Shown in pieces: positions 127 to 63,328 of a stretch of DNA of 64,000 nt (position 1 is the first letter of the stretch; each line of letters starts with the position of its first letter). This DNA is from Nitrospiraceae bacterium (lineage in GTDB: Bacteria; Nitrospirota; Thermodesulfovibrionia; Thermodesulfovibrionales; UBA6898). The DNA is taken from assembly GCA_020347665.1 (NCBI GenBank), contig CP070737.1:355515-419514 (forward strand). The letters are read 5' to 3'. The notes under the pieces were generated by a model. That model searched no databases and was not told where the DNA came from. It was given only the letters and a program-made list of their open reading frames with translations. Position numbers and translations under genes: made by a program.

Positions 127-2271
127 TTATCTCCTTACCCGGAGTACCCCTTCTATCTGGCCAATCTTATGAATAAGGGTCTGGAGCTGGGCATTATTCT
201 TAACCGCTAAAATAATGGTTATATGGGCTTGCCGGTCAGAGCTGGTTGTTGCTGAAAGGTGACTGATGTTCACATTTACTGATGAAATGAGCGCGCTCAG
301 GTTCGCCAGAATGCCCGGCCTGTCCACGGTCTCAACGAGCACGCGGGCCTGCGCCCGCGCTTCATCAGAGGTCTGCCAGGTGACGTCAACGAGCCGTGAA
401 TCCTCGTAGGCTATCCGTCCGAGGTTCGGGCAGTCCTTCCGGTGAATGGTAACCCCCTTTCCTATGGTAACAAAGCCGACGAGGGTATCACCGGGTATCG
501 GATAACAGCACTTTCCCGTGTGGTAGAGTATGTTATCCATTCCCTTGATGCTGATGCCTTTCAGCTCTTTCGGGGGTTTCCGTACCCTGACCGGCTGGGG
601 TGCTTCCTCCCGGGTTTCCGGCAGAAGCCTGTTGATGACCTGGTGGGGCGAGACCTTTCCGAATCCAACTGAAACATAGAGATCTTCGAGTGTATTTATG
701 GTAAACGACCGGGCAGCCTGCCGCATGTCATCCGACTTTATCAGTGATACGCTCAGATTATGCCTCCTCAGCTCAGCCTCAAGGAGCTTCATGCCGAGCT
801 CAATGCCCTGTGCCCGTTCCTCTTTTTTAATCCATTGTTTTATCCGTGTTTTTGCCCGGTGCGTAACAACAAACTTTAGCCAGTCTCTGCTTGGACCGTG
901 CGTCGTGGATGTGATGATTTCAACAGCATCACCATTTTTCAGCTGATAGCGTAGCGGAACCATCTTTCCGTTAATCCGGGCACCGACACACTTATGACCA
1001 ACCTGGGTATGGACGCTGTACGCAAAATCAACCGGTGTGGAACCAAGCGGCATCTCCTTGATCTCTCCTTTTGGCGTAAACACATATACCACATCAGGTA
1101 CGACCTCGCCTTTTACTTCCTCAAGAAAATCAAGTGCATCCGGGATTTCCTGCTGAACCTGGATAAGGTCCCGCAGCCACGATATGTACTTACTGCTCTT
1201 TTCGTCAAACCTCCCTTTCTCCTTGTATTTCCAGTGAGAGGCTATCCCTTCCTCTGCAAGCCGGTGCATCTCTTCTGTCCGTATCTGGAATTCGACCCGT
1301 TCCCCTTTTGGTCCTATGATCGTGGTATGGAGTGACTGGTACAGATTGGATTTCGGAACACCGATATAATCCTTAAACTTGCCGGGGATCGGGGTCCAGA
1401 GCGAATGTATGAGTCCGAGAATTGCATAGCAGTTTCCCTTTGTATCAGTCAGCACCCGTATGCCCAGAACATCATGGACCTGGTCAAAGGTTATCCGCTG
1501 CTTCTGCATCTTCTGGTAAATGCTGTAGTAATGCTTGACCCGTCCTGAAACCCTGGCCGGCATGCCTTCTTCATTAAGTTTTTTTCTGAAGAGTTCGACC
1601 ACCTCCGCGATATACCCTTCCTGCTCCTCTTTCCGCTTTGCAACCTTATCGACCATCTCATCATAGAGCTCGGGCATAAGAAACCTGAACCCAAGGTCTT
1701 CAAACTCCGTCTTCAGCCAGCCGATACCGAGCCGGTTGGCGATCGGGGCATAGATATCAAGGGTCTCCTGTGCTATTCGATGCTGTTTTGCTGAAGAAAG
1801 GTACTGGAGGGTCCGCAGGTTATGGAGCCGGTCAGCAAATTTGATGAGAATCACCCTTACGTCTTCAGACATCGCAAGGAGCATCTTCCGAAAGTTCTCA
1901 GCCTGTGCCTCCTTTTTTGTCCTGAACTCCATCTTCGACAGTTTTGTCAGGCCTTCCACAATGAACGCGACCTCAGCCCCGAAGATCTCCCTGATATCCT
2001 GTATGCTGGTTCCGGTATCCTCTATAGTATCGTGAAGTAGTCCGGCTGCAATAGATGATTCATCCATCTTCATCTCCACTAGGATATAGGCTACCGAAAG
2101 GGGATGTTTGATAAACGGAGAACCCTCTCTTCTTTTCTGGCTGCAGTGGGCTTCGCTCGAAAAGTGGTATGCCTTTTTCAGGATATCATCATCTACATCG
2201 GGATTATATGAATGGATTTTGTCGAGAAGACCGTTCAGGGTTAAGGCTTCTCTGGTTAAGACCTCTTTCAT
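127..2271 (-). CDS. rel: Bifunctional (p)ppGpp synthetase/hydrolase, Rel/SpoT family
   Basis: Makes and degrades the alarmone (p)ppGpp in the cytoplasm. At 714 aa it has the full long-RSH layout: an N-terminal HD hydrolase domain with the intact HDTIED motif (H80, D81, E84, D85), a synthetase domain at about 235-345, a TGS domain at about 392-452 and a C-terminal ACT domain at about 645-714. The synthetase loop reads KFKD (298-301). This is the basic type seen in bifunctional Rel/SpoT enzymes, unlike the acidic EFDD of monofunctional RelA, so both activities are expected. It starts at an ATG with only a weak ribosome site. It is divergent from yajC across a repeat-bearing spacer and is not in an obvious operon here. 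Confidence 0.96.
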   Translation of the reverse strand: MKEVLTREALTLNGLLDKIHSYNPDVDDDILKKAYHFSSEAHCSQKRREGSPFIKHPLSVAYILVEMKMDESSIAAGLLHDTIEDTGTSIQDIREIFGAEVAFIVEGLTKLSKMEFRTKKEAQAENFRKMLLAMSEDVRVILIKFADRLHNLRTLQYLSSAKQHRIAQETLDIYAPIANRLGIGWLKTEFEDLGFRFLMPELYDEMVDKVAKRKEEQEGYIAEVVELFRKKLNEEGMPARVSGRVKHYYSIYQKMQKQRITFDQVHDVLGIRVLTDTKGNCYAILGLIHSLWTPIPGKFKDYIGVPKSNLYQSLHTTIIGPKGERVEFQIRTEEMHRLAEEGIASHWKYKEKGRFDEKSSKYISWLRDLIQVQQEIPDALDFLEEVKGEVVPDVVYVFTPKGEIKEMPLGSTPVDFAYSVHTQVGHKCVGARINGKMVPLRYQLKNGDAVEIITSTTHGPSRDWLKFVVTHRAKTRIKQWIKKEERAQGIELGMKLLEAELRRHNLSVSLIKSDDMRQAARSFTINTLEDLYVSVGFGKVSPHQVINRLLPETREEAPQPVRVRKPPKELKGISIKGMDNILYHTGKCCYPIPGDTLVGFVTIGKGVTIHRKDCPNLGRIAYEDSRLVDVTWQTSDEARAQARVLVETVDRPGILANLSALISSVNVNISHLSATTSSDRQAHITIILAVKNNAQLQTLIHKIGQIEGVLRVRR

Positions 2272-2374
2272 ATTTTATTATACTATTTTGCCTGTGCAAT
2301 CACTATCCCCCACCCGGCAAAGCCTGCAATAAACGCCTTCGGCACGCAAAGCGCATACCGAAAAAGGCAAAAAA

Positions 2375-2580
2375 AGTAAGGAGTAGGAAATAAGGGAAAA
2401 ATCGCAAAGCGCATAGTGTAAAAAAACAGACCGCCCGAAGTAGGCTGAGGTTAAGAAAAAGGAGAGACGCGGAATGCATAACTGAGAACACTGAACCGAG
2501 AACATAGAATTATGAACCGATAATATCCTGTCTCATTATTTGTTTCTGTTTTCTCCTTACTCCTTACTGCTTACTCCTAA
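2375..2580. repeat. Degenerate 7-bp periodic repeat region (arm 1: 2375-2402; arm 2: 2481-2580)
   Basis: In the 386-bp rel-yajC spacer the sequence falls into consecutive heptamers. Examples are AGTAAGG AGTAGGA (2375-2388), ACTGAGA ACACTGA (2481-2494), ACCGAGA ACATAGA (2495-2508), and TACTCCT TACTGCT near 2558-2571. Read on the minus strand, 2481-2522 gives GTTC-centred heptamers with the same vocabulary as the array at 7402-7541. An exact 11-bp inverted repeat (AGTAAGGAGTA at 2375-2385, TACTCCTTACT at 2558-2568) links the two arms. A separate 13-bp direct repeat, CGCAAAGCGCATA, occurs at 2345 and 2403. No credible ORF fits this spacer. Confidence 0.7.
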
Positions 2581-2597
2581 CCGCCTTATCGGTTGTC

Positions 2598-2627
2598 TTG
2601 ATAAATAAACAGTAAAGAGGGTATAGT
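2598..2627 (+). promoter_or_regulatory. Sigma-70 promoter of yajC-secDF
   Basis: TTGATA (2598-2603) and TATAGT (2622-2627) are separated by 18 bp. Each differs from the consensus by one base. The site lies about 30 bp upstream of the yajC start, giving a short leader that contains the AAGGAGGT ribosome site. Position and fit make this the likely promoter for the Sec genes. Confidence 0.6.
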
Positions 2628-2657
2628 ATCTAACTAATCTTTGGAAGGAGGTGCAGA

Positions 2658-2978
2658 ATGTTTACAGAACTTGCATATGCAATGGCTCCACCTCAGGGAA
2701 GTGAGGGCGCGGGCGGCGGACTAATAAGTTTTCTCCCTCTGATTTTGATATTTGTCATATTCTATTTTCTGCTTATCCGGCCCCAGCAGAAACGGGCAAA
2801 AGAACATAAAAGCATGATCGAGAGCCTGAAAAAAGGTGACAAAATCATAACAACGGGTGGCGCATATGGTGTCATTGAAGAAGTAAAGACAAATACCGTG
2901 GTCGTGAAAATCGCTGAAAACGTACGGGTGAAATTCGGCAAAACATATATCGCGACAGTGAGGCAGGAAGACGACTAA
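2658..2978 (+). CDS. yajC: Preprotein translocase subunit YajC
   Basis: Small single-span inner-membrane protein of the SecDF-YajC accessory complex. The 106-aa product has a hydrophobic segment at about 24-44 followed by the family signature around LIRPQQKRAKEHK and the GDKIITTGG loop. A strong AAGGAGGT (2643-2650) precedes the ATG. It is first in the yajC-secD-secF cluster, the usual order. Length and motifs are typical. Confidence 0.95.
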   Translation: MFTELAYAMAPPQGSEGAGGGLISFLPLILIFVIFYFLLIRPQQKRAKEHKSMIESLKKGDKIITTGGAYGVIEEVKTNTVVVKIAENVRVKFGKTYIATVRQEDD

Positions 2979-3081
2979 ATCTGTCTGCTGATGCGAGATG
3001 TTTGATGAACTGTTAGACTGTTTTATCCTCGCTTTTATCAGAAGCAAACATACTATTATGTTACTTTATTCGGAGGCTTAA

Positions 3082-4704
3082 TTGAAAAAGAACGTTCTCT
3101 GGAGATTTCTGTTGATCGGCTTTACCGTTCTTGTTGCGGCTGTATTCTTTTTGCCGAATACCCCGCTCTTCAAATACATGCCTGCATGGTGGCAGAAGAG
3201 CATGCCGAACAAGGGCATTGTACTCGGTCTGGATCTGCAAGGCGGCCTGCACCTTGTGTATGAAGTTCAGGGTGATCAGGCTGTTCGCACATCTACGGAA
3301 CGATATGCCTTTTTAATCAAGGAAGCGCTTGAGAAAAAAGAGCTTGAAGCTGATGTGAAAACATCCGGGCTTATGATAGAGGTCTCCCCGTCGACAGAAG
3401 CTGTGGAAAAACGAATAACAAAGAGCTTTTCAAATTTCGATATCGTGTCAACAGGGGACCAGCTGGTTCTGAGGCTCTCTGACGATGAAAATACCTATAT
3501 AAAGGAAACTGCAGCTGAGCAGGCCCTTGAGACCATTCGGAACAGGATAGACCAGTTTGGCGTTTCCGAGCCAACGATCGTCCGTCAGGGTGAAAATGAA
3601 ATAGTAGTTCAGCTGCCGGGTGTAAAGGATCCAAAGCGGGCGATAGACCTGATCGGGAAAACGGCTTTGCTTGAATTTAAACTCGCTGATGATGAGGCAG
3701 CTGTTGGGTTTGACCTGCCGTCATTGATTGCTCCGGGAGAAGAAGATGACGTCCTCGCTGAATTCCAGGACAAGATTCCCCCTGAAGACGAGATTCTCTT
3801 CTTGAAGCGGAAGAACCCTGAAACAGGCATTGAAACAAAATCTCCGATATTGCTCAAGAAGAAGACACTCCTGACCGGAGACCTCCTGAGCGAGGCGCGG
3901 GTGAGTATTGATACCCAGTACAGTGAGCCATACGTATCGATAACATTCAATAGCGAGGGTGCAAAGCGTTTTGCAGAAATTACGGGTGATCATGTAAATG
4001 AACGCCTTGCTATTATCCTTGACAATACGGTCTATTCAGCTCCGGTTATCAGGGAAAAGATTCCCGGTGGCAGTGCCCAGATCAGCGGACGCTTCACCAT
4101 GGAAGAAGCAAAAGATCTGAGCATTGTGCTGAAGGCTGGTGCGCTTCCGGCACCGCTGAACATGCTCCAGAACGTGACGGTTGGCCCGTCGCTTGGCAGG
4201 GATTCGATTGAAGCAGGCAAAATAGCAGGTATTATCGCAACGATCGCGGTTATTCTGTTTATGCTTATTTATTATCGCTTCTCGGGACTGATTGCCGACT
4301 TCGCGTTATTTTTAAACGTTGTCCTGCTGCTCGGGGCCATGGCTTCGCTCAATGCAACCCTCACGCTCCCCGGGATTGCCGGAATTATTCTGGCGATAGG
4401 CATTGCTGTTGACTCAAATGTGCTAATGTTCGAACGGATACGTGAGGAACTCAGGGCAGGCAAGCCGCCTCGGTCTGCCATTGATTTTGGTTATGACAAG
4501 GCTTTTTCGACCATATTTGATTCTCATGTAACAACATTGATCACCGCAGCAGTACTGTTCCAGTTCGGCACTGGTCCGATCAAGGGATTTGCCGTAACGC
4601 TCAGTCTTGGTGTTGCGATTAATCTTTATACAGCGCTTATCGGAACGAAGTCTGTGTTTGATCTGATGACGAGCAGGTACAAGATCAAGAGGCTGAGCAT
4701 ATAG
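3082..4704 (+). CDS. secD: Protein translocase subunit SecD
   Basis: Proton-driven accessory subunit of the Sec translocon that aids late steps of export from the periplasmic side. The 540-aa protein begins with one transmembrane helix (about 9-26). A large periplasmic region follows, containing the [12 protein letters not shown] signature near residues 48-60. The C-terminal half has the five-helix RND-like membrane domain (about 365-530) with [14 protein letters not shown]. The start is a TTG at 3082 with GGAGG (3072-3076) at good spacing; no better ATG exists. secF follows after 8 bp. Confidence 0.96.
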
Positions 4705-20533: not shown

Positions 20534-23326
20534 TTACTGTTTTCTGTCCAGAACTTCACGGAGCTTTCCAGCCAGTTTATGGGGAATAATCGGCTTCTCC
20601 ATAAGTTCCACCCCCTCATCCAGGACACCATGATGGGCAAGTGCATCATCCGAATACCCTGACATGAAAATAACCCTGGTCTCAGGACATCTGGAACAGA
20701 CGTCTGCAGCCAGCTCACGGCCACCTGTCTCAGGCATGACCATGTCAGTCAGTAAAAGGTCTATGGGGGTTTCGTGCATCGCAACAATCTGCAATGCTTC
20801 TCTGCTGCTCGATGCCTCAAGATAGTGGTATCCCAGCGGCTCAAGTATCGAATAAATGAGCTGCCGGATTGAAGGGTCATCATCCACAACCAGTATTGTT
20901 TCCGTTCCGGCTGGAAGAGATTTCTTTTCCTGTTGTTTTTCTTTTTTCATTTCTTTTTCGGCAGCCGGCAGATATATTTTGAATATTGTGCCCATCCCTG
21001 GTTCACTGTATACGGAAATGTGTCCGCTATGCTGCTTCACTATGCCATACACCGTTGAAAGACCCAGACCGGTTCCTCTTCCTATTTCCTTGGTGGTAAA
21101 GAACGGGTCAAAGATCCTTTCCTGCAGGTCCCGGGTCATTCCTACGCCCGTATCGCGTACCGATAGCTGTACATACGGGCCGGGGATAATGTGCTCATGT
21201 TTACCGAGGGCAATACTGTCCAGATCGATATCAGTTGCCGTAATAGTCATGGTTCCACCCACCGGCATCGCATCACGGGCATTAATCACCATATTCAACA
21301 GGACCTGCTCAATCTGAACAGGATCAGCCATAATATGTATGGCCGGAGCCGCCATCTGCAGTTCAAGTTTTATATCTTCCCGTATGATCCGGCCGAGCAT
21401 CTTTGCCATGTTTTGGATGAGTGTGCAAAGATTGATAACTTCTATCTTCAGCACCTGTTTCCGGCTAAACGCGAGGAGCTGTCGTGTCAGCTCCGCCGCC
21501 TTATAGCCGGATTCCCTGACAATATCAAGATGTTCCCTGAGCGGACTGTTTTCAGGCAGTTTCATAAGTGATAAATCTGTAAATCCAATGATTGAGGAAA
21601 GGACATTGTTGAAATCATGAGCCACGCCGCCGGCTAAACGGCCAATCGAGTCCATTTTCTGCACCTGCATCAGCTGCGACTGAAGGGCCTTGTGCTCGGT
21701 AATGTCTCGCATAATAACAACTGAACCGATGATATTTTCTGCGGGATCGAGAACAGGATCTGCAGAAGCTAAAACCCAAATATCTTTTTCAGTGAAATGC
21801 AGTTCAGCCTCTGCATGTTTTTTCGATCGCTTCATCTGCTCCAAGAGATTCGCCTCCGACGGAGAATCCATATGCGGAAAGAGAGCGTACATATGTTTTC
21901 TGACGAAAACGCCGAAGGGTTTTTCCAGAAAAAGGGTCGTCGCCGCATTCGCCTTTACAATAGTGAAATCGCGGTCAAGGAGCAGTATCATGTCGTTTGT
22001 GGAATCAAAGGTCGTTCGCCACTCATGTGCTGCCTCAGTCAGTTTTACTTCCATCTCTTTACGTTCATATATCTCTTCCAGCAGTTTTTCATTCGCAGCG
22101 ATGAGATCCTTTGTGCGTTCTATGACCGAGCCTTCCAGCTCAGTTTTATCATGCTGTAATGATTTTTCATTAATCTTCCGTGACGTGATGTCTCTGACAT
22201 ATTGAATGATATACGATATCGTCCCACGTTGATCATATATCGGGTATGCGTGACGTTCTGACCAGATCTCATGCCCGTCAGCAGTCTGTTCGACCTGTTC
22301 CATCACAGAGGTATCACCGGATGAGAATGTTTTCTCCGCCTGACAGTTATTACATATAGTATCTCGCTTTTTTAGAGTCTTATAACATCTGTGTCCAATA
22401 ACCGTATCGACTGCTTTCTGCAGACTGCCTACATAGAAATCATTCATCCGCACTATGATGTAGTTTCGGTCGATAATGTAGAGCGGCTCCTGAATACTGT
22501 CAAAAATTGTGTTCAGAAATGATTCTGATTTCATCAGGGACTTTTCTGTTTTCTCTTTCTCTTCTATTTTTTTATTCAGAGTTTCATATCCCCGTTGCAG
22601 CCTGAGACTCATCGCGTTGAAATTGCTCGCGAGCAGACCAAACTCGGTCTGATCCCAGTACGACGTCTGGTATCCGAGCTCTCCTGCAGCTATCCTGTTC
22701 GTTGCTGTAAGGAGTTCTTTTACGGGACGGGTAACGAACCTTATTATCGATGCAGCTATAAGAATACCCAGGATAACCGTCGAAAGCAGCGAGATAAAAA
22801 GGATTGTTTTCACTTTCTTTATGTTTGACACAGCAGCCTGTGTCATCAGCACAAGCTTTGCACTCGCCTCCATGGACATTGTTTCAGCCGTAGCCTGCAA
22901 CTGATTGCCTATCTCTGCTGCTCTCAACTTCAACTGATGCATCTGATTTTTATCCGCAGATGATGAAATATAATGGCTCAACGCCATTTTGTATTCTGTG
23001 ATAAGGTGTTCCAAATCCTCTAAACGGTTGTCCATTTGAGCAGAGTGATGACAGTTCCGGCAGTTTCGTGCGTTTTGTTCGAGGTTTATTACATGGTCAA
23101 CAAGTGCATCAAGATTCTGGGCAAGGGGGGTCCGGATCGTATAGAGATCTGCCTGGACTGCCTGGACTCGTATCACCAGATTTTTTCGGAGATCTTCAAC
23201 TTCATGGAGTTTAATGAGATGGGTGAGTTCATCCGAGGATTTTTTTATGTGCAGGGTAGCTACGAGCGCACCAGATGCTGAGATGGCAAACAGTGCGATG
23301 AATAATAAGATAATTCTCTGTTTCAT
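20534..23326 (-). CDS. Hybrid histidine kinase with periplasmic c-haem motif
   Basis: Membrane sensor kinase of 930 aa. Order: transmembrane helix (about 4-24), helical periplasmic domain, second helix (about 176-199), HAMP (about 200-250), two PAS domains (about 271-390 and 440-540), HisKA with VAHDFNNVLSSIIGF, HATPase with DTGVGM and GTGLGLSTVYG, and a C-terminal receiver with an intact phospho-Asp (LLLTDMVMPE). The periplasmic domain contains CRNCH (89-93), the covalent haem c motif. The first PAS has a Cys-rich segment (CNNCQAEK) of a type common in PAS_4 domains. A redox or gas sensor is inferred. No separate regulator is adjacent. Confidence 0.9.
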   Translation of the reverse strand: MKQRIILLFIALFAISASGALVATLHIKKSSDELTHLIKLHEVEDLRKNLVIRVQAVQADLYTIRTPLAQNLDALVDHVINLEQNARNCRNCHHSAQMDNRLEDLEHLITEYKMALSHYISSSADKNQMHQLKLRAAEIGNQLQATAETMSMEASAKLVLMTQAAVSNIKKVKTILFISLLSTVILGILIAASIIRFVTRPVKELLTATNRIAAGELGYQTSYWDQTEFGLLASNFNAMSLRLQRGYETLNKKIEEKEKTEKSLMKSESFLNTIFDSIQEPLYIIDRNYIIVRMNDFYVGSLQKAVDTVIGHRCYKTLKKRDTICNNCQAEKTFSSGDTSVMEQVEQTADGHEIWSERHAYPIYDQRGTISYIIQYVRDITSRKINEKSLQHDKTELEGSVIERTKDLIAANEKLLEEIYERKEMEVKLTEAAHEWRTTFDSTNDMILLLDRDFTIVKANAATTLFLEKPFGVFVRKHMYALFPHMDSPSEANLLEQMKRSKKHAEAELHFTEKDIWVLASADPVLDPAENIIGSVVIMRDITEHKALQSQLMQVQKMDSIGRLAGGVAHDFNNVLSSIIGFTDLSLMKLPENSPLREHLDIVRESGYKAAELTRQLLAFSRKQVLKIEVINLCTLIQNMAKMLGRIIREDIKLELQMAAPAIHIMADPVQIEQVLLNMVINARDAMPVGGTMTITATDIDLDSIALGKHEHIIPGPYVQLSVRDTGVGMTRDLQERIFDPFFTTKEIGRGTGLGLSTVYGIVKQHSGHISVYSEPGMGTIFKIYLPAAEKEMKKEKQQEKKSLPAGTETILVVDDDPSIRQLIYSILEPLGYHYLEASSSREALQIVAMHETPIDLLLTDMVMPETGGRELAADVCSRCPETRVIFMSGYSDDALAHHGVLDEGVELMEKPIIPHKLAGKLREVLDRKQ

Positions 23327-23636
23327 GTATGAGCTATCCGGTATATCGTTTCCTGTTTGTATCCTGCGTTTACTGTTCTGATATTATGCAAATGCAATAC
23401 CAGCTCTTTTCCTCATCGGGACCAGTTCTGTTTCCTTTAATATCAATATGTTAACAGGACATCATGATGTGACCTGATCATGATTCGGCAAGCACTGTCA
23501 CTGATTTGACAAGTGAATCACCTTCAGGATCCGGACTGCCAGGATGATGGTATTCACCAGGTTATGGGGTGTCCAGCATGGCTGATCTCAAGGAACTATC
23601 AGTATATGAGGATCGCGAGGACGGCTTGCTGCTGAA
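23327..23636. other. Intergenic region without recognised gene
   Basis: A 310-bp spacer between two minus-strand genes. No ORF with a credible ribosome site, no tRNA and no strong hairpin was found. It should contain the promoter of the hybrid kinase, but no good -35/-10 pair was identified. Confidence 0.5.
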
Positions 23637-32519: not shown

Positions 32520-33179
32520 TCAGGTCTCGAGTTTGATAATCCCTTTATAGATAGCGAACTTGATCAATCCCGCACGGGACCGGATATCAAGTTTTTCCGA
32601 AATATTCGTCTGATGAGCGATAACCGTTTTTACACTGATAGTGAGCATGGTCGCGATTTCCTTATGACTGTGCCCCTCTGCTATGAGTTTCAAGACCTGT
32701 TTCTCACGGTCCGTCAGTCTCTCGTACGGGTCTTCAACCATGGTGCCGGATGACGTGCCAAGATACCCGTCGATGACCTTTGAAGCGATCGATGAATGGA
32801 GATACGATTCACCCTGAGAAACAGCCCTAATCGCTGCTATCAGATCGGTGCCAACCGCGTGCTTCAGGATATAGCCTGACACCCCGGCCTTCAGGAGCCT
32901 GCTGACATATGCCTTATCATCGTACTGGGTCAGAATGAGAATTTTGATCTCCGGCATGGTCTTTTTAATCTCCAGGGTCGCTTCAATGCCTCCGAGTTCC
33001 GGCATGGAAATATCCATGAGGATAATATCAGGTCTCAGTTCCTTGGCCTTCTGTATCGCCTCAAGGCCATTGGCAGCCTCACCAGCAATTTCAATGTCAT
33101 CATGCATTCTCAAGAATGCCATAATACCTTCTCTGACGAGTGCATGGTCATCAGCTATCATTACTTTTATCTTGCTCAT
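32520..33179 (-). CDS. NarL/FixJ-family response regulator
   Basis: A 219-aa two-domain regulator. The receiver has VMIADDHALVREGI, the phospho-Asp in IILMDISMPELGG and the usual Lys in GYILKHA. The C-terminal LuxR-type helix-turn-helix reads LTDREKQVLKLIAEGHSHKEI. The ATG at 33179 has a GGAG ribosome site 6 nt upstream and is preferred to the one at 33191. It overlaps the 3' end of its partner kinase by 29 bp, so the pair is coupled. Likely targets are the adjacent cytochrome genes (inference). Confidence 0.93.
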   Translation of the reverse strand: MSKIKVMIADDHALVREGIMAFLRMHDDIEIAGEAANGLEAIQKAKELRPDIILMDISMPELGGIEATLEIKKTMPEIKILILTQYDDKAYVSRLLKAGVSGYILKHAVGTDLIAAIRAVSQGESYLHSSIASKVIDGYLGTSSGTMVEDPYERLTDREKQVLKLIAEGHSHKEIATMLTISVKTVIAHQTNISEKLDIRSRAGLIKFAIYKGIIKLET

Positions 33180-35007
33180 TTTCTTCTCCAAACATATGTA
33201 ATGGAATTCTCAACGTAATTCTTGTCCCACTGCCGGGTTGGGAATAGATATATAAGCTGCCATTCACCAGGGCTGCCCGCTCTTTCATGCCGAGCAGCCC
33301 GAGTCCCCTGCCGTCTTCAGTTCTCTGCAGCGCAGATGTCACATCAAATCCTTTTCCGTCGTCCTCTATGTCCACCGAGAGAACGCTTTCGTCGATCTTG
33401 AAAATGATAAATACATTTTCTGCTTCTGCATGCCGGGTAATGTTCACTACAGCCTCCTGGAGAATCCTGAAAAGGGCTGTCTCGATATACGGATCAAACC
33501 GTCTTCCGTGCAAGGAGGCCACATTCAGGAAGTAGGTAATATTCTGTTTACCCAGATGCCTGTCGAGCAGCCACCTGATAGCTGCTTCAAGACCAAGGTC
33601 ATCCAGTGTAGACGGCCTGAGGTTTTCTATGACATTATGCACACTGTCAAGCGTCTGCAGTGCAATTTTCTTTATTTCCGTGACCTTACTGCCCGGGGGG
33701 TGTTCGGGCTGAGCAATGCACATATCCAGCCTCATTAAAATGGCCGCCAGGGATTGCATGGTTTCATCGTGCAGTCCTCGTGCAATTCTTTTGCTCTCTT
33801 CTTCTTGTGCCGTAATCACCTTTTCAAGGAGGTGCTTGATTTTTTTCTGCCCGACTGCCAGTTCATTCGTCCTCTCTGATACGCGTTTCTCAAGTTCAAC
33901 ATTATATCGCTGAAGTTCCTCGAGGGAATCAGCCAGCTTTAACCGCATAATCTCAAAGCTGGAACTCAGCATGCCGATTTCGTCAACTCCTCCGAAACTT
34001 ACTGACTGCTTCATATTTCCCGAGGCTATTTTTCTGGTCGCGTTAATCAATTCATGGATCGGTCTTATAATACTTCTGCTCATGCCGACCGCGATCATGA
34101 GTGCAACACCTATCGAGATGATACTAAAGAGAATGAATGTTTTTCTCAATTTACGCGCCGGGGCAAATACGTCCTCCTCGGGTTGCAGTATGGAAATGCC
34201 CCATGGCGCTGTTGTGAGAGGCGCGAATGCCAGAATATCTGTCGAAAGGCTTGCACCCTTTTCATATACTGCTGCTCCCTCTTCAGAGTGGCACCGGTGA
34301 CACTTTTTGACAACGTACTCCTTGTTCTTTATGAGATTTTCCAGAAACTTGTTATGGTCGCTCCCGGTAAAGATTCGTTCCGGATTGTTTGATGCGATGA
34401 TAATGCCGTGGCTGTCCACAATTTCTATATGCGTGTCTGTTTCAATAGGTATATTTCTGATCACCTGCGAAAGCATATAATTCGTGGGGTTAATTTCTCC
34501 GCCGACAATGCCGACTGCTTTACCGTCTTTGTTCCTGAGAGGTGTGAGGGCAAAAATTACTTTCTTCTTTATAGGATCGACGGTATAAATGTCGGAAATA
34601 ACCGGTTTGCCGTCAGCAATGATCTTGCTGATATACGGAATGTTTAAAAGGTTGAACGAGCTTTCAATCCGTGACGGATAGGTTAACACTGTATTGCCGT
34701 CTAAATCGAGGAGAAAGATGCCATCCGTAAATATTGAATACTGATACGCCGTCTGCAAAGCCTTCTTTTCCGGCTGCCAGTCGCCATCATTGAAGTCAAT
34801 CCCGCCTGAAAGAGAGATATCATATAGCCGGTTAAAATTCTGTTCAAGAATGGAATCCCCGTGGTTCGCAATAGTCTTTGCGAGCTCTACCCTCCTGCCC
34901 AGAGACTGTTCTATGGTATCTTTAACCGTTATATAGCTGGCAATCCCGATACTGACAATTATTATCAGGATACAGAGGATGAGTGAAATTATAATTCTCT
35001 TATACAA
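33151..35007 (-). CDS. NarX-type histidine kinase with Cache sensor and c-haem motif
   Basis: Membrane sensor kinase of 618 aa. A first helix (about 5-25) is followed by a large periplasmic dCache-like domain, a second helix (about 290-310), HAMP, a coiled coil, HisKA_3 with the phospho-His in RIARGLHDETMQSL (H413) and a HATPase with EDDGKGFD and GLGLLGMKERA. Inside the periplasmic domain is CHRCH (236-240), a haem c attachment motif, just before the membrane-proximal half. The gene is followed by its regulator and preceded by cytochrome b after 9 bp, so the kinase and cytochromes are probably one transcript. Redox or oxyanion sensing is inferred. Confidence 0.9.
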   Translation of the reverse strand: MYKRIIISLILCILIIIVSIGIASYITVKDTIEQSLGRRVELAKTIANHGDSILEQNFNRLYDISLSGGIDFNDGDWQPEKKALQTAYQYSIFTDGIFLLDLDGNTVLTYPSRIESSFNLLNIPYISKIIADGKPVISDIYTVDPIKKKVIFALTPLRNKDGKAVGIVGGEINPTNYMLSQVIRNIPIETDTHIEIVDSHGIIIASNNPERIFTGSDHNKFLENLIKNKEYVVKKCHRCHSEEGAAVYEKGASLSTDILAFAPLTTAPWGISILQPEEDVFAPARKLRKTFILFSIISIGVALMIAVGMSRSIIRPIHELINATRKIASGNMKQSVSFGGVDEIGMLSSSFEIMRLKLADSLEELQRYNVELEKRVSERTNELAVGQKKIKHLLEKVITAQEEESKRIARGLHDETMQSLAAILMRLDMCIAQPEHPPGSKVTEIKKIALQTLDSVHNVIENLRPSTLDDLGLEAAIRWLLDRHLGKQNITYFLNVASLHGRRFDPYIETALFRILQEAVVNITRHAEAENVFIIFKIDESVLSVDIEDDGKGFDVTSALQRTEDGRGLGLLGMKERAALVNGSLYIYSQPGSGTRITLRIPLHMFGEENEQDKSNDS

Positions 35008-35016
35008 TGTCCTAAA

Positions 35017-35760
35017 TTAACCGGCGTGCTGATCAGCTTTCGTTTCGTTTTGACTCTCGTGTTCGAGAGATTCGCCGGTTATTCTCTCGTATTCAAGTGG
35101 ATGTTCATGGGTCATTCTCTTCACTGATATTTTTCCTGTAAAGATCGAGGTATCAAGGGGAAATACCTCAGGACTGAAGACAGCGTTATACAGATGCCAT
35201 GTAATGATTACCAGAAAGGCAAGGAGTGCTTCGTTTGTATGGGCTGCCTTAGCCGCCGGGATAAACTCTCCCGGCAAAAACCGTACGCTTACGGTCGGAA
35301 ACCAGAGTATCAGTCCGGTAACAATCATGAGGAGCCCCCCAACGACTACTCCCCAGTACTCAAATTTCTGCTTATAATCATACCGGTCGCATCGTGCCGG
35401 ATGATCTGTGACACCGAAATAATACTTCAGATTTTCGATAGCATCAGTAAAATCCTTTCTGTTTATCACCATGGTTGCCTGCCATTTTCTGAACACCAAT
35501 CCCACCGAGGCCACGAAAATGTGAAAAACGGTCATGACGGCAAATATCAGACCGGTATACCGGTGTATGAGGCGTACTGAATCCACGCCGCCGAGCGTAA
35601 GAATAATCCATTGCGAAAGATTGTATTCATGGAACTTTTGCGACAAACCGGTCACCACAAGAACAGCAAAGGTTATCATGGCAAGCTGATGCTCAAGTAT
35701 CCGGTAGGTACTGAATCTTCTGAACTTCCCTTCTATGAATACACCTTCTTTTGCCGACAT
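35017..35760 (-). CDS. Four-helix cytochrome b (formate dehydrogenase gamma-like)
   Basis: Integral membrane haem b protein of 247 aa. Four hydrophobic helices are visible (about 27-45, 66-90, 135-156 and 175-196) with candidate haem ligands H24, H66, H80 and H189. This is the pattern of the FdnI/cytochrome b561 family that exchanges electrons between quinones and periplasmic partners. Only 21 bp separate it from the upstream 13-haem gene, and a kinase gene follows. A quinol oxidoreductase subunit feeding or draining the cytochrome is inferred. Confidence 0.85.
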   Translation of the reverse strand: MSAKEGVFIEGKFRRFSTYRILEHQLAMITFAVLVVTGLSQKFHEYNLSQWIILTLGGVDSVRLIHRYTGLIFAVMTVFHIFVASVGLVFRKWQATMVINRKDFTDAIENLKYYFGVTDHPARCDRYDYKQKFEYWGVVVGGLLMIVTGLILWFPTVSVRFLPGEFIPAAKAAHTNEALLAFLVIITWHLYNAVFSPEVFPLDTSIFTGKISVKRMTHEHPLEYERITGESLEHESQNETKADQHAG

Positions 35761-35781
35761 GGCACCTCCTGTCTATTACTC

Positions 35782-37212
35782 CTATCTATTAACAGTATAA
35801 CGCCAAATATGCAGGAGTATCTGAAGTATCAACCCGACCATCATGAACGGAATAAATATCTTATATATGAGATTAATCGTGAAAACGAGCGGTGCCCGTT
35901 TCAGACTCGGCTTGTAATGAGAAATCCAGCTGTCCGGGAAATCCGCCGTTGCGTCCGGATGACATTTCTGGCACCGCCTCAGAAGCTTTGTTTTGACAAC
36001 AGACGATGCCGGGCCCGTCGTCGTCGTAATATCGTGAATACCGTGGCAGTCAATGCAGGCCGCTATGGGCTTGAACGTTGATGCAGCCCCGGTCTCTTTT
36101 TGCCTGCCGTAAAATGTAAGCGTAACCCCGTGAAAATCCTGCAGGTAACTCTTCAGCACATCTGTAGTAAGATTATACCTGTCCATAAGCTCACGATTAG
36201 CATGGCAGTTGCCACACATCTGTGGAATTTGCTCCCGATAATCAAAGGTTCTCGGATCCTCAATATCGTGAGCTCTGTGGCAGTTGGCACAAACAGGTAC
36301 ATCCTGATTATGTTCCTGAAACAGGGCAGTCCCGTGTATACTTGCCGAATAGGTGTTGTATATGTCTTTATGGCATGTCTTGCATCTTGTCGCGCTCGTT
36401 GTCCTGTCTTTATGCGATTGACTGATCGCATGTGATCCATGACAGTCAACACAAACCGGTGCTTTAAGGTTGCCCTGACTCAACATGGAATAATGGATAC
36501 TTTCGAGTGTTTTTGTGTATTTATCAAAATGGCACCGCCGACAGCTCTCTGATGAGGTAAGCGTAAAATCTCTCCTGCTTCTGAATGTTCTTACGGGGTG
36601 CTCTTCTGGTGAAAAACCGAAGTGACAGTCTGAACAGTACAATTTATTATGAACAGATAACCGGAGCATTTCGGATTCGATACGTACAGACATCGCGTCA
36701 CCATTTGCAAAGCTCATGGTCAACTCATTCGAATGACATCCAAGACAATACTCGGAGGCCTTGGATGCCACTTTTGAAACAGATGTAACAGCATGGGCTC
36801 CGTGACAATCAACGCATACCTTACCGCCTTTCCTGGCCATCTTTGTCATTCGTGTGTGCAGTTCCGACCTGAACGTACTATGGCAGTTTCTGCAGAGCAT
36901 TGCTCCTGAAATCGTATATTCCCTTTTGGTGTTCAGCTTTCTGCTTGGATGATTCTGGGCTGAAAATCCGGTATGGCATCCTGAGCAGTCAAATGATCTG
37001 TGAACCGAGTCTTTGAATTGACGTTCATCTACATATAAAGGGAGTGTTTCACCATACATCAGCGATATTTCGAATCCCTTAATACCGTGACAACCAAGAC
37101 AGATCTGAATCTCACCGATGGGATTGGTCGGGTCAGCAGAAGAGAATGTTGGTATGAAAAGAAAATTCAGAACCATTAGATACCCGAATAGATGGCAAGC
37201 CCTTTTTAGCAT
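35782..37212 (-). CDS. Membrane-anchored 13-haem cytochrome c
   Basis: Periplasmic multihaem cytochrome. Thirteen CxxCH motifs are counted, among them CLGCH, CSGCH, CRNCH, CVDCH, CKTCH and CQKCH. Several sit in paired blocks where a distal SVH or SIH precedes the next motif. The chosen ATG (37212) has AGAGGAG at good spacing and yields a signal peptide ending near FSSA. A C-terminal hydrophobic helix (last 35 residues) anchors it. It heads a cluster with cytochrome b and the haem-motif kinase. The exact substrate cannot be told; octahaem nitrite or hydroxylamine enzymes are not an obvious match. Confidence 0.9.
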   Translation of the reverse strand: MLKRACHLFGYLMVLNFLFIPTFSSADPTNPIGEIQICLGCHGIKGFEISLMYGETLPLYVDERQFKDSVHRSFDCSGCHTGFSAQNHPSRKLNTKREYTISGAMLCRNCHSTFRSELHTRMTKMARKGGKVCVDCHGAHAVTSVSKVASKASEYCLGCHSNELTMSFANGDAMSVRIESEMLRLSVHNKLYCSDCHFGFSPEEHPVRTFRSRRDFTLTSSESCRRCHFDKYTKTLESIHYSMLSQGNLKAPVCVDCHGSHAISQSHKDRTTSATRCKTCHKDIYNTYSASIHGTALFQEHNQDVPVCANCHRAHDIEDPRTFDYREQIPQMCGNCHANRELMDRYNLTTDVLKSYLQDFHGVTLTFYGRQKETGAASTFKPIAACIDCHGIHDITTTTGPASSVVKTKLLRRCQKCHPDATADFPDSWISHYKPSLKRAPLVFTINLIYKIFIPFMMVGLILQILLHIWRYTVNR

Positions 37213-37363
37213 CCGCATCTCCTCTCTGGTGCGCAATGGTAAACGATACGTTACCCTCATAAGAATAACAAGTCAGATTATTATATACAATAGGTATAAA
37301 TTCTTATAATCAGGGGAATAATTTCCTAGGCACTTTTCTCCCAAAGCATTATAACTCTCTGTT

Positions 37364-38975: not shown

Positions 38976-40217
38976 CTATTCAACAAGATAGGAAAACCGC
39001 TTCTTGAATTCTTTGGTGCTCAATTTCGCGTGCTTTGCAAGTCTGGATACTGTTCCGCCTTTAAAATCCTTTTTTTCAAGACGGATCATATAATTTCTGC
39101 CAACCTCGTAATTTTCAGAATTGACATCAACAAGCCTCACTTTAATATTTCCTGTGACGCGTTCCGTCATTTCGACAAATGATACCGGTCTTAACTTGCC
39201 CTCGTCAAATACAATCATGGCTCCTGATCCTCCATTCAATAGGAACCTGACCGCTCCGTAGCCGAGATTTCTCGTATATTCTATGTCGTATGGGATCGGA
39301 TCTGCAGCTCTCAGTTCATACCCAACGGTCTTGTGCACAATAGTCATAGGGATCCCGCGCGACTCTAGACTCTCCCGCACTTCGTCTCTGAGTATCCCTC
39401 CGAACTGAAGCTCGGAAAATCTGATCCGGCCAAGCTCATCCCGCCTCATGTTTCCAAAGAGCGCACTATCGCTCACATTTAGTCTGCCCGAAATACCCTC
39501 GGCAAGGACAACCACACCATGATTCTTGCCCATTGAAAGCCTTTTTATGATCGCACCTTCGAGGATATCAGCGACTCTTTTCATGCCAAGCTTATTATGT
39601 TCGAATTCTTCGGGAATTAAGGTAACCGTAGCGCCGGCTGCCTTGCCAATGCCAAGTGCCAGGTGGCCGGAAGAACGCCCCATGGTCGTAATAAAGTACC
39701 ACCTGCCCGTTGTCTTTGCGTCTTCCATAATATTCTTTACAATTTCAACTCCCCAGTCGCGTGCTGTCTGATATCCGAAACAGGACTGCCCTGCCGGAAG
39801 ATAGAGATCATTATCAATAGTCTTGGGAACATGAACGACCGCTATTTTCCCCCGCGCTTCCTGTTCAATCCACCGTGCCATAAACGCAGTGCCATCACCG
39901 CCAATGGTTATGAGATGCCGTATGTTCAGAGAACGCATCGTTGCAAGGAGTGTTTTGAACTTTGTCTGGGCATCGTCAACAGAATCCCGAGACGTTCCCA
40001 GTATTGAACCGCCAGAGGTATGAATTCTCGAAACATCCTTAATGCGCAGCGGCAGAGCGCATCTAAGGTCACCGGAAAAGAGGCTCTTGAATCCTCCGCG
40101 GATCCCTATGACGTCCCGCCCCTCGGTAATTGCTTCGATTGTTGAAGAGCTTATGACACCATTAATTCCCGGAGCCGGTCCACCCCCAACAACAATGCCT
40201 ATGATCCCTTTTTTCAT
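38976..40217 (-). CDS. pfkA: 6-phosphofructokinase
   Basis: Glycolytic enzyme of 413 aa phosphorylating fructose 6-phosphate. It has GGGPAPGING at the start, GGDGT (106-110) and PKTIDND (131-137). Gly109 at the position that is Asp in pyrophosphate enzymes points to ATP, whereas Lys132 is shared with pyrophosphate-type and plant-type or group III enzymes. ATP dependence is therefore likely but not certain. It follows a class II aldolase gene by 43 bp on the same strand, so the two glycolytic steps are co-encoded. No strong ribosome site is seen. Confidence 0.9.
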   Translation of the reverse strand: MKKGIIGIVVGGGPAPGINGVISSSTIEAITEGRDVIGIRGGFKSLFSGDLRCALPLRIKDVSRIHTSGGSILGTSRDSVDDAQTKFKTLLATMRSLNIRHLITIGGDGTAFMARWIEQEARGKIAVVHVPKTIDNDLYLPAGQSCFGYQTARDWGVEIVKNIMEDAKTTGRWYFITTMGRSSGHLALGIGKAAGATVTLIPEEFEHNKLGMKRVADILEGAIIKRLSMGKNHGVVVLAEGISGRLNVSDSALFGNMRRDELGRIRFSELQFGGILRDEVRESLESRGIPMTIVHKTVGYELRAADPIPYDIEYTRNLGYGAVRFLLNGGSGAMIVFDEGKLRPVSFVEMTERVTGNIKVRLVDVNSENYEVGRNYMIRLEKKDFKGGTVSRLAKHAKLSTKEFKKRFSYLVE

Positions 40218-50068: not shown

Positions 50069-50104
50069 AGCGAGATGGGCCGCGGATTCGCGGCCCATCT
50101 CGCT
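50069..50104. terminator. Perfect 16-bp hairpin between convergent trpD and cytochrome b genes
   Basis: AGCGAGATGGGCCGCG (50069-50084) pairs perfectly with 50089-50104 around a GATT tetraloop, directly after the trpD stop. The genes on both sides converge here, so a bidirectional terminator is the natural reading. No T-run follows on either strand, as in the trpA-accD hairpin, which has the same size and loop length. Confidence 0.7.
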
Positions 50105-50125: not shown

Positions 50126-50764
50126 CTATGCTGATGCAGGCTCATGTTCCTCTTCTTCTTCATATCCCGTAACCATAGCCTTGATATGTGCCATGGGCGT
50201 ATGGCCGAGTGTCGCCAGATAGACGTGCACAAAAATAAAGGACGAGAAGAATAAGAAGAGAAACACATGTATCGTATCAACAATCTTGATTCCTCCAGCG
50301 AGATTGATCCACTCCTCAAACATCTTGATATCCCAGAGGAAGAGGCCTGAAACGAGCTGCAGCGGTATCAACAGCAACATTATGGAGAGATACGCAATCT
50401 GCTGCATCGGGTTGAACTTGTTGTCAGGTGAAGGGTGATGAGGATTCTCGTCGCCCATAAAAAGTCCGTACCCGTAATACCGGGCCTGCCGCATGCTTCC
50501 CAGAACAAACTTCTTGATTCTCAGCGGAGGAATATAGATCTTGATTTTCCCCGTAAAGAAATAATAAACAACCCAGATGAAAAAGTTGAAGATCAGTATG
50601 AACCCGAATATATTATGAATGTCAACAGCTGTCTCGAATTTTGTCAGGCCCAGTAACTCATGATATCTGATCTGCACACCGGTGATAATAAGTACGATAA
50701 AACTGAGCGCATTTACCCAGTGCCATACGCGCACCGGTATCGGATGAAGGTATATCTTTTTCAT
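50126..50764 (-). CDS. Cytochrome b561/hydrogenase b-type membrane subunit
   Basis: A 212-aa membrane haem b protein. The start VRVWHWVNALSFIVLIITG is the signature of the Ni,Fe-hydrogenase/formate dehydrogenase cytochrome b family, with haem-ligand candidates H15 and H50 and two or more in the TIHVFLFLFFSSFIFVHVY helix. Four helices are visible. The C-terminal tail is Glu-rich. It overlaps the upstream 13-haem gene by 4 bp. It parallels the cytochrome b at 35017 in partner but belongs to a different subgroup by sequence. Confidence 0.87.
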   Translation of the reverse strand: MKKIYLHPIPVRVWHWVNALSFIVLIITGVQIRYHELLGLTKFETAVDIHNIFGFILIFNFFIWVVYYFFTGKIKIYIPPLRIKKFVLGSMRQARYYGYGLFMGDENPHHPSPDNKFNPMQQIAYLSIMLLLIPLQLVSGLFLWDIKMFEEWINLAGGIKIVDTIHVFLFLFFSSFIFVHVYLATLGHTPMAHIKAMVTGYEEEEEHEPASA

Positions 50765-52512
50765 CTTCTGCCCCCCTTTCTCAGCTTGTTCATCCTCCGT
50801 GCTTCCCGTATGGGAGAAGTCAGTATTCTAAGGGTAATATGTCCGATAGGCACTGCCATTCCCCCGAATACCATCAGAATGCCAAGCCAGTCAAGTATTT
50901 TCAGCCTTGTACTACCGAGAACATAGAACTGACGAAGGGAGAGAAGGGAGGTCATTGACCCAAGTACTTCGGGGTCAGCCTTATACTGCGTAACTCTTCC
51001 GTCAGCCCTCACAACTGCGACAGTCACGGTTTTGAAAAAGTCCGCATCAGCATGATGACAACTTTCACATTTCCTGACTGCATCCTTTTTATTGGAGAGT
51101 TGGTGTGCTTCTGTAATAGTTCTCGTGTCCATTCTTCCCAGAAAGGTTACCTTGGCATCAGCCCCTTCTTTATTGAGCTGTTTTACAATATCCCAGAGTT
51201 CATAGGAGTCAATACCATCTCCGTGCGGATCTATCCTTTCAGAAAGCCCTTCATATTCGATGCCGAGAATATTCACTATCTGTTCCGCGGTAAATGGCTC
51301 CCCGGTATTTTCATCATAGAGTCTCAGAAAGATTCCCCTCTGAGAGTCTGGTGAGTGACATGCAGCGCAGGCAACCATACTTAAATGGAGTTGTGAATTT
51401 GGAAGCCATGCGTCGTGGAGATCCTCGGCTTCGGTATGACATCCGAGACACGCTCCTTTCAGCTTTTTTGTCATTGCGGTTGCCGTAACTTCATGCGCCA
51501 CATGACAGGAAAAACAGAGCGGGGCCTTATGCTGACCCTCCAGCCGGGCCATACCATGTACACTTTGTTCATAAACCTCAAATACATTTTCGTGACACTT
51601 TCTGCACGGTACACCGCTTAAGGTATTATAGGTAGCTTTTTGACTAACGTCATGAAATCCATGGCAGTCTGTGCATACAGGGGCATCCCGGTTGCCCTCG
51701 ATCATCATGGTGTAGTGAATGCTGCTTTCAACAGCACGGTGCTTATCAGCGTGACACTGGTTACAGACACCCGATACGGCAATTGAGTGTTCACGAATAC
51801 TTTCAAATTCCTTGACCGGATGTGACGATCTGGAAAATGCGTTATGGCAGTCCGAACAGACATGACTGGTATGAACAGAAGCCTGTAAATCATCCGGATC
51901 AACAGAGAGGGATAGTGTTTCTCCGTTATTCATTGTTTTCGTCATGTTTTCTTGATGGCATGTAAGACAGTACTGATTGTCAGCTTTGGCGGGTTTCCAT
52001 TCGGAAAGGCGCTTCACGGTGTGAGCGCCATGGCATTGGGAACATGGCGGACCATGAGTTCTGTTCGTAAGATACGCATGGATCGGTCTGGCTCTGAGCT
52101 GAGCATCTGTATGGCAGGTCCTGCACGCTTTCGACGTATCAAGTGCAAATGCCTTTTTGCTGTCGAATACTCTGCCCGGGTGTGATGCCATTGAGATGTT
52201 CTGGTGGCAGTCAGTGCAGCTCAACATGCTGTGCACAGAACCCCTGAAGTCTGACGCATTGACGAACACCGAAAGCTTTTCCTTGTTCTTAAACACCTTG
52301 ACCAGTCCGTGTGATGAATGACAGGTCATGCACAAAGGAGCATTTTCAACAATGGCTGCTTTCCTGGCCTGAGCAATTTCTGGCAGTGCTACGAGCAGGG
52401 TCATGAACACGATCAACGGTAGCAGTGCGATATAGAATACGCCGAATATCGGACCGAGCAATACCAGAAGCACTTTTTTCCCTGAAATCTGTTCAGCTGT
52501 ATCATCAAACAT
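50761..52512 (-). CDS. Membrane-anchored 13-haem cytochrome c with two anchors
   Basis: A 583-aa multihaem cytochrome. An uncleaved N-terminal helix (about 14-45) precedes thirteen CxxCH motifs (CMTCH, CTDCH, CRTCH through CESCH). A C-terminal helix (about 540-562) and basic cytoplasmic tail follow. Between haems 12 and 13 lies an insert with ERIDPHGDGIDSYELWDI, an EF-hand-like acidic segment. The ATG has AAGGAGGT 7 nt upstream. Motif order and the SVH...SHP block match the cytochrome at 35782, so they are paralogues. It overlaps cytochrome b by 4 bp and has its own promoter. Confidence 0.9.
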   Translation of the reverse strand: MFDDTAEQISGKKVLLVLLGPIFGVFYIALLPLIVFMTLLVALPEIAQARKAAIVENAPLCMTCHSSHGLVKVFKNKEKLSVFVNASDFRGSVHSMLSCTDCHQNISMASHPGRVFDSKKAFALDTSKACRTCHTDAQLRARPIHAYLTNRTHGPPCSQCHGAHTVKRLSEWKPAKADNQYCLTCHQENMTKTMNNGETLSLSVDPDDLQASVHTSHVCSDCHNAFSRSSHPVKEFESIREHSIAVSGVCNQCHADKHRAVESSIHYTMMIEGNRDAPVCTDCHGFHDVSQKATYNTLSGVPCRKCHENVFEVYEQSVHGMARLEGQHKAPLCFSCHVAHEVTATAMTKKLKGACLGCHTEAEDLHDAWLPNSQLHLSMVACAACHSPDSQRGIFLRLYDENTGEPFTAEQIVNILGIEYEGLSERIDPHGDGIDSYELWDIVKQLNKEGADAKVTFLGRMDTRTITEAHQLSNKKDAVRKCESCHHADADFFKTVTVAVVRADGRVTQYKADPEVLGSMTSLLSLRQFYVLGSTRLKILDWLGILMVFGGMAVPIGHITLRILTSPIREARRMNKLRKGGRR

Positions 52513-62277: not shown

Positions 62278-63096
62278 TCATTGCAGTAACGTTTCAATAT
62301 TCCGAGCCATTCGCACATTATCATGTTGCACAAACTGATGGCAAAAAAAACAATCGATCTGTTTTACCGTAACATGGTGACGATGAATATACTCGGGTTC
62401 GTTATATTTCTCTGTCCTGTTTATGTGGCAGAAGAAGCATTTTTCTTTGGGGACGTTAGATGATCCGATCACGACTAAGCTGTGACAGTCCACACAGACA
62501 GCGCCTTTTTCAAGTGGTTCTTCATGATCGAACAGAATTCCTCTGTAACGGACAGTCCCCTGGGGTTCTTTATGACATACTGTGCACTGTTCGGTAAACT
62601 TGCTGTCTTCTTCTCCATGAAGATGACAGATGAAACAGACATTCTTTGAAACTTTCATATGCTCCCCCTGAACAATATCTGAATGGCAGCTTCTGCAGTG
62701 GAGTAAAATGCTTTTCCTCTGTTCCGTAAAATGCGGTTTGTGATCAAAGACAATGTTCCATTTCGTGAAATCAACCGTGGACTCTATCAATCTTCTTTCA
62801 TGGCAGCCGTCCTGCAGGCAATTCCTATCAGGGACAACAGTGAGTGGTCTGGGATTGAACGTTCCGGCTATAAACCTGATCTGCCCTGAGAGCGCATTCA
62901 GGGGGCCATATTCATGACATTTAAGGCACGGTACCATATTATGTGTCGACTGTTCCCATTTATTATAATAAGGTGTAATAAAATGGCAGTACCGGCAGAT
63001 CGCAGGTCTTTCGATCATTACCTCTCTTGCGAAAAAGTATGTTGCCGTAAGCAACACAAGAACGACGAGAATGAACATTACTGTTATTTTTGTCAT
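62278..63096 (-). CDS. Membrane-anchored 9-haem cytochrome c, NapC/NrfH-like start
   Basis: A 272-aa multihaem cytochrome from the ATG at 63096, which has AAGGG at good spacing. One N-terminal helix (about 4-22) precedes eight CxxCH motifs (CRYCH, CLKCH, CRSCH, CFICH, CTVCH, CVDCH and two CFFCH). A ninth site is of CX4CH type, CLQDGCH. The first 60 residues resemble NapC/NrfH quinol dehydrogenases, which have four or five haems, so the rest looks like an added domain. No enzyme partner is adjacent. It is divergent from the broken DUF502 gene. Confidence 0.88.
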   Translation of the reverse strand: MTKITVMFILVVLVLLTATYFFAREVMIERPAICRYCHFITPYYNKWEQSTHNMVPCLKCHEYGPLNALSGQIRFIAGTFNPRPLTVVPDRNCLQDGCHERRLIESTVDFTKWNIVFDHKPHFTEQRKSILLHCRSCHSDIVQGEHMKVSKNVCFICHLHGEEDSKFTEQCTVCHKEPQGTVRYRGILFDHEEPLEKGAVCVDCHSLVVIGSSNVPKEKCFFCHINRTEKYNEPEYIHRHHVTVKQIDCFFCHQFVQHDNVRMARNIETLLQ

Positions 63097-63120
63097 CCTG
63101 TACCCTTTCCTCCATTCATT

Positions 63121-63148
63121 ATACATAATCCACCATACATAATCCGCC
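63121..63148. repeat. Tandem 14-bp repeat upstream of the 9-haem gene
   Basis: Two adjacent copies of ATACATAATCCRCC (63121-63134 and 63135-63148) differ at one base. The 14-bp unit equals two heptamers. They lie about 25 bp upstream of the cytochrome ATG, near where its promoter or ribosome-site region would be. Confidence 0.6.
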
Positions 63149-63328
63149 GAAAAAATGCGGTCCCGAAGCAGTATGCCAGGAAGTTTTTTCCATCACTTTG
63201 GGAAAAATGTTCATTTGTTTACCGTACCGAAAGCACCGATCAGGGATGCCCCGATATAATACGCTAGGAGTGGTCTGGCCTCTCGCGGTCAGATATCATA
63301 TAGTTCTGGAACAATAAGGTGGACTGCT

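Follow-up and report, generated by a model that had tools for sequence, protein, structure and literature searches.

CbcBA of Geobacter is an inner-membrane complex whose genetics have been published, the primary paper on it reportedly being that of Joshi from 2021. The complex has been described as an inner-membrane quinone oxidoreductase (PMC12977616), and the Pfam domains reported for its subunits are PF01292 for GSU0593 (cbcB) and PF09699 for the heptahaem GSU0594 (cbcA) (PMC7726332); the members of the cbc5 cluster have also been listed (PMC11434368). Among other described systems, CbcL of Geobacter sulfurreducens carries a multihaem c domain and a diheme b domain at the inner membrane and passes electrons to PpcA (PMC9129911), and Mco of the ANME-2a/b archaea combines a VhtC-like b subunit with a multihaem cytochrome (MHC) of 7-11 haems (PMC9012536).

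The window, by which we mean the whole 64-kb stretch of DNA analysed here, encodes two modules, which we term type A (the 50-kb module) and type B (the 35-kb module), in each of which a multihaem c-type cytochrome (P0001 and P0003, respectively) lies beside a b-type cytochrome of family PF01292 (P0002 and P0004; Table 1). An earlier note on this DNA had credited both cytochromes with 13 CxxCH motifs, C-terminal anchors and b partners of different subgroups, all of which agrees with what we found: there are exactly 13 motifs in each, with no other cysteines in P0001, the anchors are present in both, and the two b subunits share 22% identity, fall on separate tree branches and have different nearest models (thiosulfate-reductase/hydrogenase b for P0002, formate-dehydrogenase gamma for P0004). 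Its statement that the haems run in a similar order holds for haems 1-11, which are in register (33% identity over 330 aa, E 1e-66), but not for the parts bearing haems 12-13, which are unlike and in which the spacing is ~95 residues in P0001 and ~23 in P0003. Similarly, the shared SVH-CxxCH-SHP block exists as SVH-CxxCH-xHP, with SHP only in P0001 and NHP or EHP in P0003. With the haem motifs masked, the two proteins scored 294, whereas shuffled sequences averaged 31.5 and never exceeded 50, so their likeness is not a chance effect of the motifs.

The paralogy of the c subunits and the presence of both modules thus stand as the earlier note described them, but the proximity of the modules is not conserved. 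In the relatives compared, type A and type B modules are on different contigs (C156 and C70 in G003; C10 and C86 in G010), so their closeness here is incidental, and for the same reason we rejected a reading of the two modules as a single pair. There is also a third bc module outside the window (C1:1883821-1886274; L003, L037), made up of a 7-haem cytochrome, an FdnI-like b and a 9-haem lipoprotein-like cytochrome, whose gene order recurs in the relatives read with a last gene of 6 or 9 haems. Three further ORFs in the window, all on the minus strand, are recorded here for their own sake. That at 62278-63192 joins an NrfH-like N-terminus to c3/c7-type haem domains, with 8 CxxCH motifs plus one C-x4-CH (CLQDGCH), and a similar 8-haem protein is encoded at L126:17345-18256; a long ORF at 20534-23383 resembles a sensor at its N-terminus and has one CxxCH (CRNCHH); and 38976-40217 encodes a diphosphate-dependent phosphofructokinase (589 bits to NF041103).

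Table 1. Coordinates in the window of the features of the type A and type B modules
Feature	Position	Strand	Remarks
Type A
13-haem c-type cytochrome subunit P0001, CbcA-like with duplicated haem units	50761..52512	-	583 aa
N-terminal signal/hydrophobic helix of P0001	52366..52512	-	residues 1-49; AxA-like site at end, A49 invariant; putative cleavage
P0001 haem unit 1	51988..52347	-	haems 1-4, residues 56-175; masked comparison with unit 2
P0001 haem unit 2	51622..51984	-	haems 5-8, residues 177-297; masked comparison with unit 1
P0001 five-haem CbcA-like core	51055..51621	-	haems 9-13, residues 298-486; matches PDB 28pb
Degenerate EF-hand-like loop of P0001	51196..51231	-	DPHGDGIDSYEL, residues 428-439, between haems 12 and 13
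P0001 C-terminal membrane helix	50830..50901	-	residues 538-561, invariant His558
PF01292 four-helix cytochrome b P0002, CbcB-like	50126..50764	-	212 aa; His15, 50, 166 and 180 predicted haem b ligands
Perfect 16-bp inverted repeat	50069..50104	.	4-nt loop; between the b gene and convergent trpD
Type B
Paralogous 13-haem cytochrome P0003	35782..37260	-	492 aa
FdnI-like PF01292 cytochrome b P0004	35017..35760	-	247 aa
Sensor histidine kinase of the operon	33151..35007	-	dCache-HAMP-HisKA_3-HATPase, conserved CxxCH
LuxR-type response regulator of the operon	32520..33191	-	

Both reading frames of the type A module are open over the intervals given in Table 1 and, as read, form a two-gene unit in which an AGGAGG ribosome-binding site lies immediately 5' of the P0001 ATG and the c and b genes overlap by 4 bp; a sigma-70 promoter scan gave 8 matches against 4.7 expected. 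The neighbours are an MscS-like gene upstream and trpD downstream, and the inverted repeat that separates the b gene from the convergent trpD is a probable two-way terminator. P0002 was assigned to PF01292 with an E of 2e-29. All four haem-ligand positions of FdnI have histidine counterparts in P0002, P0004 and P0012; one of those in P0002 is shifted by three alignment columns relative to FdnI, with an identical 14-residue spacing. In P0001, haems 1-4 and 5-8 form a tandem repeat (z = 13.6 with the haem motifs masked), and a 17-haem relative, P0014, has a third such unit (z 23). AlphaFold models of P0001 (pLDDT 72, pTM 0.52) and P0003 (pLDDT 65.7, pTM 0.45), single-chain models of medium or low confidence, gave no significant PDB match in fold searches and, therefore, no structural claim made here is based on them.

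A search of the PDB with the P0001 sequence gave one strong match, 28pb (E 1.4e-13; profile E 6.7e-28), which was deposited as 'Cytochrome c' and is heptahaem judging by its sequence. Haems 1-2 of 28pb correspond to the first two haems of P0001, and haems 3-7 of 28pb to haems 9-13 of P0001, a stretch in which the WLP...LH motif and the insert are also shared; over the c core, the identity of P0001 to 28pb and Geobacter CbcA is only ~24-30%. A scan of named genomes with P0001 as the single query gave no matches, and the same genomes queried with 28pb gave 33 loci, nearly all from Geobacterales/Desulfuromonadales and some of them interrupted by frameshifts or contig ends. With the exception of one distant locus (L070), a PF01292 gene 41-54% identical to P0002 adjoins the 7-haem gene in these loci. 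In L070, from a Thiotrichaceae member, we observed an ORF (2181-4181) that fuses a 9-haem cytochrome with a b domain akin to those of types B and C. In Geobacter argillaceus (L041) the c-b pair is flanked on one side by a sigma-54 response regulator and on the other by a 12-haem cytochrome, an arrangement consistent with the cbc5 cluster. The Pfam domains of this pair are the same as those reported for GSU0593 and GSU0594. The identification with CbcBA runs along a chain from 28pb to the Geobacterales loci to the published domains, and not through a direct alignment of GSU0593/GSU0594.

A phylogeny of the b family, one of the checks proposed in the earlier note, grouped the type A b sequences with those of Geobacter (SH-aLRT 98) and kept them separate from types B and C; the tree was built quickly, and its outgroup branches are long. 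The earlier note had missed these experimentally studied relatives of the 28pb/CbcA type, and its suggestion of a new type of quinol-cytochrome complex finds no support in the 50-kb module, which belongs with Geobacter CbcBA. Our best reading is that this module is probably a haem-expanded CbcBA variant, not a new kind of enzyme.

Type A is present in 46 of the 296 genomes sampled from this phylum. Among the loci read, type A c subunits from Geobacterales have 7 haems and those from this phylum 13 or 17, with none intermediate; the one entry of 12 haems is the present gene itself, truncated by the end of a locus. All complete type A loci examined have the b gene immediately beside the c gene, and the remaining neighbours differ from locus to locus (trp genes, V-type ATPase, groEL and, in L127/L128, a divergent hydrogenase-like cluster). 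In the loci read of the 17-haem family f10 (including L027, L029, L267 and L273) a gene for a 4-haem cytochrome comes next after the pair, and its product is a candidate soluble partner. The EF-hand-type loop has its canonical form in 25 of the 30 type A proteins with seven haems and 12 of the 15 with seventeen, but in only 5 of the 35 with thirteen; in P0001 one residue of it has been lost. Judged by sequence, type A in this phylum is a form in which the five-haem CbcA core and tail were kept and the N-terminal four-haem units were duplicated.

A major question arising from these observations is "What does the P0001/P0002 pair do?" It is, in our judgment, quite probably a CbcBA-like oxidoreductase of the inner membrane that connects menaquinone with periplasmic cytochromes and has an enlarged c subunit. 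For this pair we infer quinone binding, complex formation and electron acceptors as follows: P0002 would carry a pair of haems b spanning the membrane, and would bind and oxidise quinol, the electrons would pass from the haems b to the membrane-tethered 13-haem c chain of P0001, and P0001 would deliver them to small soluble periplasmic cytochromes, for which the three trihaem c7-like proteins of the genome are candidates. As a guess, the tail His558 may lie near the quinone pocket. As the earlier note stated, no reductase catalytic subunit lies beside the module, and no catalytic Mo or Ni subunit is encoded with P0002 in its neighbourhood. The part of its proposal of a quinone-linked conduit that concerns a periplasmic acceptor fits the diheme-type b, the bis-His-capable c haems and this lack of a catalytic subunit, but an extracellular acceptor is unsupported: a family search of the genome (~91% complete, read in stretches and with 8,600 bases as N) gave no MtrB porin, and likewise no QrcA and no [NiFe] hydrogenase (PF00374).

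In which direction would the electrons flow? We regard flow from quinol to the periplasm as more likely than the reverse because the work in Geobacter points that way. The genome has dsrA, however, so flow could instead run from the periplasm to quinone: periplasmic cytochromes would then feed the menaquinone pool through the same complex and drive sulfite/sulfate reduction, as has been proposed for CbcBA in the sulfate-reducing syntroph Seep-SRB2, which lacks Qrc (PMC10553843). This is a serious possibility that we nevertheless think unlikely. Besides dsrA, the genome has a dsrMKJOP-like cluster (by inspection), and QrcA and [NiFe] hydrogenase are among the families not found. On the other hand, the pair has no linked gene for an enzyme that would donate electrons in the periplasm or outside the cell, possible periplasmic acceptors exist, NrfHA among them (NrfH passes its cut-off and has an NrfA-like neighbour), and in a genome estimated to be 91% complete such absences weigh little.

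If P0001 were itself a periplasmic reductase that received electrons from its b subunit and acted on nitrite, hydroxylamine, tetrathionate or a similar substrate, then an open haem of the NrfA, HAO or OTR type would be expected. Profile searches gave weak matches to HAO and NrfA chains that lean that way, as do fold matches to HAO that fall short of significance. However, no reductase family model scored above its cut-off, and the type A c subunits have 13 invariant non-motif histidines for 13 haems, in addition to His558 in the C-terminal helix (the type B c subunits have the same count plus His484). Each c haem of either type can thus, as far as the sequences go, be bis-His, and since every haem has its invariant partner, none in P0001 need be catalytic; we rejected a catalytic haem in P0001 on this ground and rate the reductase reading as very improbable. 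The reading in which P0001/P0002 serves as the membrane part of a hydrogenase, formate dehydrogenase or thiosulfate reductase whose catalytic subunits are encoded elsewhere is weaker still, because the scores that favour it (145 bits to thiosulfate-reductase cytochrome b and 83 bits to hydrogenase b for P0002) are both below the curated cut-offs, the genome-wide family search, which among these three enzymes covered [NiFe] hydrogenase, found none, each of the three PF01292 proteins that the genome encodes adjoins a multihaem cytochrome, and it is the c-b pair, not any catalytic gene, that is conserved.

The type B module is the more novel of the two: in the open-access literature we found no characterised relative of its c-b pair. 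Type B b subunits (at least 50% identity to P0004) are present in 34 of 61 related genomes, and the downstream sensor kinase in 31 of 35 type B loci, some of these loci being too short to tell. The CxxCH of this kinase (CHRCH here) is kept in 22 of the 23 kinases that cover the region, and the kinase is probably, from this motif, a c-haem redox sensor. Tentatively, type B (32520-37260) may be a separate quinol-cytochrome family, comprising a 13-haem conduit, an FdnI-like b and a sensor kinase with covalent c haem, which with types A and C would give three parallel b/multihaem routes out of the quinone pool, assembled from four-haem units that can be duplicated. If this were true, the redox state of the periplasm would regulate the type B complex that serves it.

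The occurrence in another phylum of CbcBA-type pairs with 13- and 17-haem c subunits widens the marker set for such systems, and cautions against annotating genes of this kind as hydrogenase, thiosulfate-reductase or DmsE proteins. Also, the natural series of 7, 13 and 17 haems on one core offers a test of wire length versus added four-haem units.

How, then, does the type A module compare with the described systems? In the wide sense of CbcBA (GSU0593/GSU0594, part of Cbc5, Geobacter sulfurreducens), its sequences place it within that kind. P0002 is likewise a PF01292 b subunit and falls on the CbcB branch, P0001 is a membrane-tethered c with the same five-haem core, an insert before the last haem and a similar C-terminal helix, sharing the WLP, FYxLGSTR and GHxTxR motifs of the CbcA core and tail, and the c and b genes are adjacent with c first, as in the Geobacterales loci. 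In the strict Geobacter sense it lies outside, since its c subunit has 13 haems and not seven, and the cbc5 context (a gene of the 12-haem CbcC/OmcQ type and a sigma-54 regulator) is absent beside it; its EF-hand-like loop is also degenerate. CbcL similarly couples an inner-membrane multihaem c to a diheme b, but as one polypeptide with 9 haems and six helices, whereas here there are two ORFs, 13 haems and a four-helix b. Mco, likened by description and not by subunit homology, also has a hydrogenase-type b repurposed next to a multihaem cytochrome, but is archaeal, uses methanophenazine and has its b gene before its c gene. Finally, FdnI, the gamma subunit of formate dehydrogenase-N of E. coli, shares the four-helix diheme b, with its four histidines kept in P0002, and is nearer to the type B and C b subunits; it serves a molybdenum dehydrogenase with an Fe-S subunit, whereas P0002 has a 13-haem cytochrome beside it and no such partners.
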